Origin: Lamellibrachia columna
Lineage: Eukaryota > Annelida > Polychaeta > Sabellida > Siboglinidae
Direction: 5' to 3'
Assembly: GCA_963662155.1 (NCBI GenBank)
Contig: OY759270.1
Location: 53,281,374-53,345,373, forward strand
DNA length: 64,000 nt
Below are positions 16,701 through 25,700 of this stretch, in pieces. The stretch's first letter is position 1. Each line of letters opens with the position of its first letter. A program made the translations under genes and the position numbers. Under the pieces are notes generated by a model. That model searched no databases. It saw only the letters and a list, made by a program, of their open reading frames with translations, and was not told where the DNA came from.

Positions 16701-19700
16701 TCTGATGACTGTGTAAATGCCAGCAGCATATTTTTCAAAATAGAACAGGCAGATATCTGTCAACTTGTATCAAGGGTGGTTCACACACTGAAGGTGGCAG
16801 AACTCTCAAAAAGCCAGTTACTTCTTTCCTGTGTAGAAATTGTTGCACTGTGTAGTTAGTACATAAAAAATCTGATTTACACTGTCGTTGAAATTTTTAT
16901 ATTTAATGTGTAGGTAAGTATTTAATTAAAAATACAGTAAAATTAGTCATACACTGCAGTGTCACAAAAGCATATCTCTTTACCTTACATGCCATATCCA
17001 ATTATCTCAGACAGATAATTGCAATATAATTAATTAAGTTTTTAGATCTTTTAAACAATTCTTTTTTGCTTTTCTAAATTACACTAAGTACATTTAAAAA
17101 AATAAGTAATTTGCCTCACCTAACTTTCACCTTGGCTGTTTCAAAGCTCTCTGCCACATAGTAGACGGGTTGGTACTCAGTAATTGGGTACTTCTGCTCT
17201 GCAGTCTTCGCAGGGTCAAAAGGACGTACCTCCGGTTTGTCACTCAGGCAATACTGTTGGCAGATGTCAATCAACTCATTGTAGTCATTGACCAAGTAAT
17301 GCCATGTAAAATATAATGAATGTATGAATTATATCAATGTGTAAATATAACTGACTATTTGTCAAGATTATTTTACAAGATAGCAGACATTTAAACCATG
17401 CTAAAGTGTCAGTAACTGACCATTTAGTAAACTGCTGTAGAGAAAAGAGAGGATGTGCATATGTGCAGGCATGCATGCAGACATGTATATAAATAAATAC
17501 ATATGTACATACGTAAGTACGTACGTACGTACGTACGTACGTACATACGTACGTGCATACAAATAGAAGTATCTTTGTGTATGTCTGTGTGTGTGTTTGT
17601 GCTTGTGCATGCATGGATGTGTGCATGCGTCTGCTGAATATGTATGTCAGACTTGCGAATATATGGATGTATATATGAAACTATTAAAATTGACTGAGGT
17701 TTGTTCCCATAACTTGCGCTTGTGAGGACACATACTTGCAGCTCCCCAAAGGAAGAGAGAAGTCCTGCTCCAAATGCCCTAAGGGCACCATTCTGTCGAC
17801 ACAACCCAAACTCCACGGTGAACCAGTAGCACTGCAAGAGAACCAAACTCCATGGTGAATCAGTGGCACTGCAAGAGAACCAAACTCCATGGTGAACCAG
17901 TAGCACTGCAAGAGAACCAAGCTCCACAGTGAACCAGTAGCACTGCAAGAGAACCAAGCTCCACGGTGAATCAGTGGGACTGCAAGTGAACGAAACTCCA
18001 TGGTGAATCAGTGGCACTGCAAGAGAACCAAACTCCACGGTGAATCAGTAGCACTGCAAGAGAACCAAACTCCACGGTGAACCAGTAGCACTGCAAGAGA
18101 ACCAAACTCCACGGTGAATCAGTGGCACTGCAAGAGAACCAAACTCCACGTTGAACCAGTAGCACTGCAAGAGAACCAAACTCCACGGTGAATCAGTGGC
18201 ACTGCAAGAGAACCAAACTCCACGGTGAATCAGTAGCACTGCAAGAGAACCAAACTCCACGGTGAATCAGTAGCACTGCAAGAGAACCAAAGTCCACGGT
18301 GAATCAGTAGCACTGCAAGAGAACCAAACTCCACGGTGAACCAGTAGCACTGCAAGAGAACCAAACTCCACGGTGAACCAGTAGCACTGCAAGAGAACCA
18401 AACTCCATGGTGAACCAGTAGCACTGCAAGAGAACCAAACTCCATGGTGAACCAGTAGCACTGCAAGAGAACCAAACTCCGCAGTGAATCAGTAGCACTG
18501 CAAGAGAACCAAACTCCACGGTGAACCAGTAGCACTGCAAGAGAACCAAGCTCCACGGTGAATCAGTGGCACTGCAAGAAAACCAAACTCCACGGTGAAT
18601 CAGTAGCACTACAAGAGAACCAAACTCCATGGTGAATCAGTAGCACTGCAAGAGAACCAAACTCCACAGTGAACCAGTGGCACTGCAAGAGAACCAAACT
18701 CCATGGTGAACCAGTGGCACTGCAAGAGAACCAAACTCCATGGTGAACCAGTGGTACTGCAAGAGAACCAAGCTCCACGGTGAATCAGTGGCACTGCAAG
18801 ATAAACAAACTATGGTGAATCAGTAGCACTGCAAGAGAACCAAACTCCACAGTGAACCAGTGGCACTGCAAGAGAACCAAACTCCACAGTGAACCAGTAG
18901 CACTGCAAGAGAACCAAACTCCACAGTGAACCAGTAGCACTGCAAGAGAACCAAGCTCCACGGTGAATCAGTGGCACTGCAAGATAAACAAACTATGGTG
19001 AATCAGTAGCACTGCAAGAGAACCAAACTCCACAGTGAACCAGTGGCACTGCAAGAGAACCAAACTCCACAGTGAACCAGTAGCACTGCAAGAGAACCAA
19101 GCTCCACGGTGAATCAGTGGCACTGCAAGAGAACCAAACTCCATGGTGAATCAGTGGCACTGCAAGATAAACAAACTATGGTGAATCAGTAGCACTGCAA
19201 GAGAACCAAACTCCACAGTGAACCAGTGGCACTGCAAGAGAACCAAACTCCACAGTGAACCAGTAGCACTGCAAGAGAACCAAGCTCCACGGTGAATCAG
19301 TGGCACTGCAAGAGAACCAAACTCCATGGTGAATCAGTGGCATTGCAAGAGAACCAATCTCCATGGTGAACCAGTAGCACTGCAACAGAACCAAGCTCCA
19401 CAGAGGTACTGCAAGAGAACCAAGCTCCACAGTGGCACTGCAAGAGAACCAAGCTCCACAGTAAACCAGTGGCACTACAAGAGAACCAAGCTCCACAGTG
19501 AATCAGTGGCACTGCAAGAGAACCAAACTCCACAGTGGCACTGCAAGAGAACCAAGCTCCACAGTAAACCAGTGAAACTGCAAGAGAACCAAGCTCCACA
19601 GTGAATCAGTGGGACTGCAAGAGAACCAAACTCCACAGTGAATCAGTGGTACTGCAAGAGAACCAAGCTCCACAGTGGCACTGCAAGAGAACCAAGCTCC

Positions 19701-22700: not shown

Positions 22701-25700
22701 GGTACTGCAAGAGAACCAAGCTCCACAGTGGTACTGCAAGAGAACCAAGCTCCACAGTGGTACTGCAAGAGAACCAAGCTCCACAGTGGTACTGCAAGAG
22801 AACCAAGCTCCACAGTGGTACTGCAAGAGAACCAAGCTCCACAGTGGTACTGCAAGAGAACCAAGCTCCACAGTGGTACTGCAAGAGAACCAAGCTCCAC
22901 AGTGGTACTGCAAGAGAACCAAGCTCCACAGTGGTACTGCAAGAGAACCAAGCTCCACAGTGGTACTGCAAGAGAACCAAGCTCCACAGTGGTACTGCAA
23001 GAGAACCAAGCTCCACAGTGGTACTGCAAGAGAACCAAGCTCCACAGTGGTACTGCAAGAGAACCAAGCTCCACAGTGGTACTGCAAGAGAACCAAGCTC
23101 CACAGTGGTACTGCAAGAGAACCAAGCTCCACAGTGGTACTGCAAGAGAACCAAGCTCCACAGTGGTACTGCAAGAGAACCAAGCTCCACAGTGGTACTG
23201 CAAGAGAACCAAGCTCCACAGTGGTACTGCAAGAGAACCAAGCTCCACAGTGGTACTGCAAGAGAACCAAGCTCCACAGTGGTACTGCAAGAGAACCAAG
23301 CTCCACAGTGGTACTGCAAGAGAACCAAGCTCCACAGTGGCACGGCAAGAGAACCAAGCTCCACAGTGGTACTTCAAGAGAACCAAGCTCCACAGTGGTA
23401 CTGCAAGAGAACCAAGCTCCACAGTGGTACTGCAAGAGAACCAAGCTCCACAGTGGCACGGCAAGAGAACCAAGCTCCACAGTGGTACTGCAAGAGAACC
23501 AAGCTCCACAGTGGTACTGCAAGAGAACCAAGCTCCACAGTGGCACGGCAAGAGAACCAAGCTCCACATTGGTACTGCATAACCATCTAACCACAAAAAT
23601 CTCATTCACAATTGTTGAATGTAAGAGGGTGAATACAGCAATCTGAACAAGGCAGCACGCTAATTAAATACAAACTAACAGACACAAGATGCCTAGAGAG
23701 TAGAGAAGTCGATATCTGTACTTTTGTAGCTGTCTTTTATGTTGACAAATTTTGTAATATCTTATAATTTTCAAACTGTAAATTCAATAAAAAGTTGTCA
23801 CTTATAATGTCACCTTGGTCAGTTGCAAACTAGCACGGCACATATCAAGTGTCACCTTGGTCAGTCACAAACTAGCATGGCACATATCAAGTGTCACCTT
23901 GGTCAGTTGCAAACTAGCATGACACATATCAAGTGTCACCTTGGTCAGTCACAAACTAGCACAGCACATATCAAGTGTCACCTTGGTCAGTCACAAACTA
24001 GCACGGCACATATCAAGTGTCACCTTGGTCAGTTGCAAACTAGCACGACACATATCAAGTGTCACCTTGGTCAGTTGCAAACTAGCACGGCACATATCAA
24101 GTGTCACCTTGGTCAGTCACAAACTAGCACGGCACATATCAAGTGTCACCTTGGTCAGTCACAAACTAGCACGGCACATATCAAGTGTCACCTTGGTCAG
24201 TTGCAAACTAGCACGACACATATCAAGTGTCACCTTGGTCAGTTGCAAACTAGCACGACACATATCAAGTGTCACCTTGGTCAGTTGCAAACTAGCACGG
24301 CACATATCAAGTGTCACCTTGGTCAGTTGCAAACTAGCACGGCACATATCAAGTGTCACCTTGGTCAGTTGCAAACTAGCACGGCACATATCAAGTGTCA
24401 TCTTGGTCAGTTGCAAACTAGCACGGCACATATCAAGTGTCACCTTGGTCAGTCACAAACTAGCACGGCACATATCAAGTGTCACCTTGGTCAGTCACAA
24501 ACTAGCACGGCACATATCAAGTGTCACCTTGGTCAGTAGCAAACTAGCACGGCACATATCAAGTGTCACCTTGGTCAGTTGCAAACTAGCACGGCACATA
24601 TCAAGTGTCACCTTGGTCAGTTGCAAACTAGCACGGCACATATCAAGTGTCACCTTGGTCAGTTGCAAACTAGCGCGGCACATATCAAGTGTCACCTTGG
24701 TCAGTTGCAAACTAGCACGGCACATATCAAGTGTCACCTTGGTCAGTTGCAAACTAGCACGGCACATATCAAGTGTCACTTTCGTCAGTTGCAAACTAGC
24801 ACGGCACATATCAAGTGTCACCTTGGTCAGTTGCAAACTAGCACGGCACATATCAAGTATCACCTTGGTCAGTCACAAACTAGCATGGCACATATCAAGT
24901 GTAACCTTGGTCAGTTGCAAACTAGCACGGCACATATCAAGTGTCACCTTGGTCAGTTGCAAACTAGCATGGCACATATCAAGTGTCACCTTGGTCAGTT
25001 GCAAACTAGCACGGCACATATCAAGTGTCACCTTGGTCAGTTGCAAACTAGCACGGCACATATCAAGTGTCACCTTGGTCAGTTGCAAACTAGCACGGCA
25101 CATATCAAGTGTCACCTTGGTCAGTTGCAAACTAGCACGGCACATATCAAGTGTCACCTTGGTCAGTTGCAAACTAGCACGGCACATATCAAGTGTCACC
25201 TTGGTCAGTTGCAAACTAGCACAACACATATCAAGTGTCACCTTCGTCAGTTGCAAACTAGCACAACACATATCAAGTGTCACCTTCATCAGTTGCAAAC
25301 TAGCACAGCACATATCAAGTGTCACCTTCGTCAGTTGCAAACTAGCACAACACATATCAAGTGTCACCTTCGTCAGTTGCAAACTAGCACGGCACATATC
25401 AAGTGTCACCTTGGTCAGTCACAAACTAGCACTGCACATATCAAGTGTCACCTTGGTCAGTCACAAACTAGTATGGCACATATCAAGTGTCACCTTGGTC
25501 AGTCACAAACTAGCACGGCACATATCAAGTGTCACCTTGGTCAGTCACAAACTAGCATGGCACATATTAAGTTTCACCTTGGTCAGTCACAAACTAGCAC
25601 GGCACATATCAAGTGTCACCTTGGTCAGTCACAAACTAGCACGGCACATATCAAGTGTCACCTTGGTCAATCACATACTAACATGGCACATATCAAGTGT

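Follow-up and report, generated by a model that had tools for sequence, protein, structure and literature searches.

A tandem array of splice acceptors ahead of exon 10 of an annelid PAH gene, probably a tolerated minisatellite of the mirage kind

Introduction

Minisatellite-like tandem duplications that lie across an intron-exon boundary, at 3' or 5' splice sites, are known as mirages, and AG or GT is found in many of their copies but not in all (PMC3087553, PMC3902484). As far as the accessible text of these papers goes, mirages were described in amphioxus, namely in the globin genes BflGb6 and BflGb9, with Adh3 cited together with its length and somatic instability (PMC3087553); PGBD5 was added and TnC named in the other report (PMC3902484). 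The mirage of BflGb6 consists of 3-6 units of 150-160 bp whose copies are 81-100% alike (PMC3087553), and the units of the Adh3 mirage are given as 10-72 bp. The data on mirages suggest that regular splicing is undisturbed (PMC3087553), and they were proposed as a source of new introns (PMC3087553, PMC3902484). Here we describe an array of this type in the PAH gene of an annelid. It lies in a stretch of 64,000 nucleotides (the window; C10:53281374-53345373, on one of the 30 contigs of an 879.7-Mb assembly), where the 3' splice site of exon 10 is repeated 185 times upstream of the authentic one. We consider with good, though not full, confidence that this is a neutral minisatellite of the mirage type which is tolerated by its gene, and that the branch point used by exon 10 is probably borne by the repeats.

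Results and Discussion

The Acceptor Array

The array and its surroundings comprise the following features of the window.

17832-23574, minus strand: tandem array in which the PAH exon-10 3' splice site occurs in 185 upstream copies
17832-19380, minus strand: exon-proximal zone, chiefly 37-bp units; six 37-bp units lie further out, to about 19717
19746-23574, minus strand: distal zone of 29-bp units
20848-23224, minus strand: internal higher-order duplication with a period of 1131 bp; 20848-22093 and 21979-23224 are identical over 1246 bp
23575-23584, minus strand: intron-side edge GGTTATGCAG, read directly ahead of the first exon-like copy
17736-17831, minus strand: PAH exon 10, 96 bp and 32 residues, acceptor AG at 17832-17833, donor GTATGT, placed by boundaries and homology
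17832-26030, minus strand: intron between PAH exon 8+9 and exon 10
26031-26157, minus strand: PAH exon 8+9, donor GTCAGT
23808-25923, minus strand: second minisatellite of the exon-10 intron, 42 bp x 50

The first exon-like copy starts at 23574 and the last one before the exon at 17868, while the authentic exon, which is intact beside the array with canonical AG and GT as in mirages, starts at 17831. Tandem Repeats Finder (TRF) renders the array as two overlapping ones (17806-19743 and 19372-23579). The 37-bp unit joins the intron end TTCTCTTGCAG (11 nt) to the first 26 nt of exon 10, including the codon of the Glu that we take to be the third iron ligand, and spans the exon-intron boundary of its host in the way that defines mirages. 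The initial annotation had described a minisatellite built of the exon-10 3' splice site between the old intron and the real exon, with many decoy AGs, and this was borne out. Its figure of about 180 copies agrees with our count of 185, but the single unit length of 37 bp does not: only 45 copies are 37 bp long, while 3 are 35 bp and 137 are 29 bp. Likewise, a unit of exactly 11 intronic and 26 exonic bases describes the 37-bp class, where the exon part is identical to exon 10 in 4 of 45 units, and not the 29-bp class, in which 8 exonic nt are deleted.

The 29-bp unit nearest the exon is copy 43. The mean pairwise divergence is 0.047 in the 29-bp class versus 0.083 in the 37-bp class, and there are 45 distinct unit sequences among the 185, with a graded variant structure. 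As read from the units, the 8-nt loss would fit a deletion between two copies of CACTG, and forms holding both copies persist (CACTGGTTCACTGTGG in 4 units and CACTGATTCACTGTGG in 3). The second CACTG sits where the exon reads CCG. At that CpG, C to T changes were found in 16/45 units and G to A changes in 11/45, and CpG decay would yield such changes, creating the second CACTG. The internal duplication may be either a recent event or an effect of assembly; the identity of 1246 bp at a lag of 1131 bp in this one assembly merely hints at length polymorphism or somatic instability. The edge GGTTATGCAG is possibly a degenerate remnant of the old acceptor. From 19506 to 23663 the 29-bp zone is open for more than 1,000 codons in several frames on both strands.

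The exonic origin sets this array apart from the other arrays of the window that were compared. When 29 of the 47 merged TRF arrays were compared with 14 exons (11 of PAH and 3 of the zinc-finger type), shorter or simple arrays being omitted and those above 700 bp represented by their two ends only, the exon-10 array had the longest exact exon match, of 26 nt; in the remaining 28 such matches reached 13 nt at most, and none of these arrays appeared exon-derived. The 42-bp minisatellite of the same intron, with a longest exact exon match of 11 nt, does not visibly come from an exon. A genome search with 95 nt of 37-bp units as the query reported 81 matches, all of them in the array or at the exon edge; this search scored the best candidates only and skipped very common words, and the 29-bp unit was not queried separately.

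PAH occupies the minus strand, and 11 of its coding exons were placed with canonical splice sites (2, 3, 4, 5b, 6, 7, 8+9, 10, 11, 12, and 13). Exon 8+9 is a single exon here, where human PAH has exons 8 and 9. Exon 5a was seen by a translated match and is undelimited, and exon 1 was not located. The reading frames are open in the two joined pieces flanking exon 5a, with a stop at the expected end. The translated pieces match ACT (PF01842, E 1.1e-08) and Biopterin_H (PF00351, E 8.5e-149) in Pfam, and the closest solved chain in the PDB is PAH. Elsewhere in the gene, a 15-bp minisatellite (38271-38473) begins at a distance of 4 bp from the exon-2 donor and contains no copy of the exon.

Splice Signals and Consequences of Decoy Use

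AG is kept in 160 of the 185 copies, that is, in many but not all of them as in mirages: 47/48 of the 35/37-bp class and 113/137 of the 29-bp class. The exact TTCTCTTGCAG occurs in 149/185. A loose branch motif (yUnAy, searched from -48 to -15) precedes 43 of the 48 copies in the 35/37-bp class versus 5 of the 137 in the 29-bp class, and AG and a near branch-like motif occur together in 46 copies. It follows that most distal decoys have no branch-like site nearby. The authentic acceptor has its own candidates:

17856-17860, minus strand: branch-like motifs of the authentic acceptor, CTGAT (A at -29) and TTCAC (A at -25)

Both lie in the part of the nearest repeat copy that derives from the exon. 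Sequence of the old intron is now first met about 5.7 kb upstream of exon 10, and the 37-bp unit could not hold the old branch region, because only the last 11 intronic nt are repeated. Because the old branch region is displaced, exon 10 is most likely spliced through a branch point in the first repeat copy, in what was formerly coding sequence, provided that its splicing is correct, as an intact gene would require. Exon 10 included, 8 of the 11 PAH acceptors have a branch-like motif in the same interval.

Each AG copy was then taken as the acceptor. A stop is met before exon 10 in 158 of the 160 cases, copy 2 is open but frameshifted, and copy 3 (17942) is the sole decoy that is both in frame and open, which would add 37 residues. 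Almost any slip to an upstream copy would end in an early stop. These results narrow several earlier expectations. Of the roughly 180 acceptors said to stand ahead of the real one, 160 retain AG, 25 have lost it, and only 46 combine AG with a branch-like motif, since most 29-bp units have no such motif nearby. Slips of 37 or 29 bases do shift the frame, yet the rescue expected from three added units is limited to the third copy. And the use of a decoy would nearly always lead to a stop rather than to a new isoform.

How the authentic acceptor would be chosen is not evident from its local sequence. It has 10 pyrimidines in 17 positions, the same as 128/129 distal and 39/45 proximal acceptors counted, so a stronger polypyrimidine tract was not found. 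Local RNA structure does not single it out either: its accessibility (0.0007) ranks 61 of 186, where the median is about 0.0008 for 37-bp copies and 0.0002 for 29-bp copies. These findings weigh against our reading, because a preference for the authentic site is left unexplained by pyrimidines and accessibility that are not superior. Therefore exon definition, by which a downstream donor promotes the choice of its acceptor, is the likeliest cause; for an exon of 96 bp, recognition from its own donor would be expected. Other points also count against us. The neutrality of the array is assumed, and splicing through the last acceptor is predicted from sequence. Three of the 11 PAH acceptors have no branch-like motif. 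The number of branch motifs is 1 in the 29-bp zone versus 57.9 in shuffles and 67 in the 37-bp zone versus 32.7, but the copies behind this zone-wide contrast are not independent, being repeats of two units. There is no enrichment of YAG either (107 versus 164.5 shuffled in the 29-bp zone and 44 versus 57.0 in the 37-bp zone). When single 29-bp units were shuffled, 57% had no branch motif and 43% had one; since 43% hold it, a 29-bp unit that lacks the motif is in itself nothing unusual. Selection against branch motifs in these units is thus unsupported.

Arrays at Splice Sites of Other Genes

Four further genes on the same contig have arrays across a splice site.

C10:22106316, minus strand: TH-like gene, degenerate units of about 31 bp made from the exon start plus the intron end and including the gene's own homologous acceptor
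C10:34496762-34497078: TPH-like gene, 52 bp x 6.1, across the acceptor of the CCHELLGH exon, copies 97% alike
C10:53374798-53376233, about 31 kb beyond the window: C2H2 zinc-finger gene, 30-bp unit x about 48, spanning an acceptor of a zinc-finger exon
C10:53531126-53531648: carnitine acyltransferase gene, donor array of a 29-bp unit made of exon end and donor, exon ending at 53531634

In the TH-like gene, 8 copies within 4 mismatches of a 20-mer were found 910-1228 bp upstream of the exon, and none on the opposite strand; remnants of the repeats also adjoin the exon. The TPH array sits at another exon than that of PAH, and none was found at the homologous WFTVEFG exon. CTGTT is present in the TPH exon and again where the array meets the intron, as would be expected if a duplication with microhomology had left it. 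The unit of the zinc-finger gene comprises 16 intronic and 14 exonic nt. With the authentic site counted, it has 46 matches, of which 42 keep AG; in the zinc-finger reading frame of the exon, each of the 41 AG decoys would run into a stop. The Pfam score of this exon (27.2 bits) is just above the cut-off of 27 bits. At the carnitine acyltransferase exon (Pfam E 8.5e-15), 18 matches include the authentic donor, with GT in 15 of them. An acceptor-only rule is ruled out by this donor-spanning array. The origins of the five arrays look separate, because their units differ in sequence, length, and phase.

Two other arrays lie close to likely acceptors. One, of 22 bp x 6, ends immediately ahead of that of the carnitine acyltransferase exon, and the other, a 65-bp x 18 minisatellite of the window (61339-62511), ends about 22 bp before that of a zinc-finger exon.

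Splice-Site Bias or a Minisatellite-Rich Genome

The founding of arrays at splice sites may need no bias, if minisatellites arise everywhere and the few that straddle exon ends are tolerated. The region is dense in repeats: tandem arrays make up 31.7% of the window and 72,588 of the 192,500 bases read in the adjoining 200 kb, and 130 arrays were counted in 294 kb. Within the 200 kb (C10:53345374-53545373), one 42-bp array beside the window spans 11.5 kb. Only 1 of 21 PAH splice sites lies inside an array, and acceptors as well as a donor were hit. In the 200 kb, the array-edge scan for open reading frames (ORFs) covered 90 arrays with 107 acceptor-side and 42 donor-side ORFs, passed through a complexity filter and judged by eye. 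Its Pfam step comprised 10 sequences (TH and TPH as controls, 3 with zinc-finger or acyltransferase hits, and 5 without a hit). Two of the 90 were found to lie across a splice site of an exon with Pfam support, which is a lower bound and not a rate.

Against the absence of bias, founding overlaps exceed expectation. Three of the 24 PAH, TH, and TPH exons have an acceptor array where 0.38 were expected at the array density given above, 130 per 294 kb (Poisson P 0.007). Without PAH, 0.19 were expected in 12 acceptors and 2 were seen (P 0.016), and by a hand calculation over all 48 exon ends, 0.75 were expected and 3 seen (P about 0.04). This is a small post hoc sample, and old degenerate arrays, that of TH being one, fall outside the density used. 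No donor array was found among the 24 exons, as in none of them did the donor junction give the highest count at two copies or more; this check took the best 20-mer per exon only, and several TH and TPH ends are approximate tblastn ends. The two sides appear evenly matched to us. The absence of bias is in any case compatible with the reading of the PAH array as a tolerated neutral minisatellite, which needs no bias.

Origin of the Array and Alternative Explanations

Based on this anatomy, we propose that the founding event was a short tandem duplication across the exon-10 acceptor, and that the array would have expanded by slippage and unequal exchange. In some copies, the loss of 8 bp between CACTG repeats would have given rise to the 29-bp family, which was presumably amplified farthest from the exon and most recently, because it is homogeneous and contains the identical 1.2-kb internal duplication. 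The protein would have remained untouched and the array tolerated, because every added copy stands upstream of the intact last copy. The old branch region would thereby have been displaced by about 5.7 kb, with the exon-10 donor favouring the last acceptor by exon definition. The same process would have struck separately the acceptors of the TH, TPH, and zinc-finger genes and the donor of the carnitine acyltransferase gene.

Other explanations were weighed. The array could be functional, its decoys tuning PAH output through unproductive splicing, with decay of stop-bearing transcripts, or through an isoform longer by 37 residues. That 160 decoys retain AG, 46 of them with a near branch-like motif, and that the decoy at 17942 is open and in frame would suit such a role. 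Yet stops follow 158 of the 160, the insert of 37 codons would fall in the catalytic core, and the comparable arrays of four other genes have units of their own and have decayed to different degrees, a pattern suggesting a mutational habit and not a device of PAH; we regard a function as improbable. Still less credit is due to the idea that the array or its length is an artefact of assembly: although the 1246 bp identical at a lag of 1131 could reflect a misjoin or merged haplotypes, the variants are graded, with 45 distinct unit sequences among 185, and analogous arrays exist at other genes.

Nor does it seem at all likely that this PAH copy is decaying or dead, with exon 10 no longer spliced. 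The displaced branch region, the many decoys, the missing exon 1, the undelimited exon 5a, and two further Biopterin_H matches on another contig (C4:38388369 and C4:38235920) could be taken in its favour, but the exons read are open, their splice sites are canonical, and the stop lies where the gene should end. Moreover, C4:38388369, the one of the two matches that was read, looks TPH-like rather than PAH-like by eye (54% to PAH over 24 residues), so that a second PAH was not seen there, and no repeated exon boundary was found in the 4 kb read around it. Tolerance of a neutral array is thus the best-supported reading of what is, by anatomy, a member of the mirage kind, and any function is putative.

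A broader proposition seems to us neither more nor less probable than its opposite. Splice sites of this annelid, mainly acceptors, would recurrently be amplified to as many as about 185 copies; the branch region would be displaced, exons would be spliced through branch points taken from duplicated coding sequence, and the spliceosome would ignore dozens of complete decoys, which would make this a route of intron growth and of rebuilding of intron 3' ends. The PAH intron amounts to a natural competition experiment, with more than 40 acceptors that are nearly identical and have branch-like motifs, all within about 2 kb of a single exon, and about 110 AG sites in 29-bp units where such motifs are rare nearby. 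The five arrays in one genome apparently differ in age (decayed in TH, 97% alike in TPH, large in PAH and the zinc-finger gene), and could give a time series of how arrays arise, grow, and dissolve into introns.

The Host and Comparison with Known Systems

The host was placed by its mitochondrial genome, a contig of 16,783 bp (C30) with COX1 identified by Pfam. On one strand the order is nad3, nad2, cox1, cox2, atp8, cox3, nad6, cob, atp6, nad5, as read from the frames over 5506-16783, partly masked, with the genes other than COX1 named by eye. This order from nad3 to nad5 is what we take to be the annelid ground pattern. A cephalochordate host, for which we would expect atp6 beside atp8, was rejected, as cox3 follows atp8 and atp6 follows cob. 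Among the other contents of the window, frames resembling the reverse transcriptase and endonuclease of long interspersed nuclear elements were seen by eye at 52765-55367 (minus strand) and 8426-11344, one piece falling just under the cut-off of RVT_1.

In an annelid, minisatellites are described within introns of earthworm metallothionein genes (PMC12783039). Like the PAH array, they are tandem repeats in a host intron, but units made of splice-site or exon sequence are not described in the accessible text of that report (PMC12783039). The PAH array also bears the marks of slippage and unequal exchange that ordinary variable number tandem repeats and minisatellites have, such as variant blocks and higher-order duplication; unlike them, its unit consists of the host's 3' splice site and coding sequence. 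In the open-licence literature searched, no report of an annelid minisatellite at a splice boundary was found, and mirage-like cases beyond those of amphioxus were not recognised. The initial annotation knew of no described case of a host splice acceptor amplified to this scale, but in kind the mirages of amphioxus precede it (PMC3087553, PMC3902484). As far as the accessible descriptions show, they resemble the PAH array in their boundary-spanning repeats and in a splice dinucleotide kept in many but not all copies. The differences are that the PAH array has 185 copies in 5.7 kb and two main families of unit length, versus 3-6 units of 150-160 bp in BflGb6, and that its host is an annelid and not a cephalochordate. 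Thus the kind is already known from amphioxus, and what is new is the annelid host, the recurrence, and a size beyond that of BflGb6, the one case whose size could be read; boundary-spanning minisatellites are hereby extended from amphioxus to a distant phylum.

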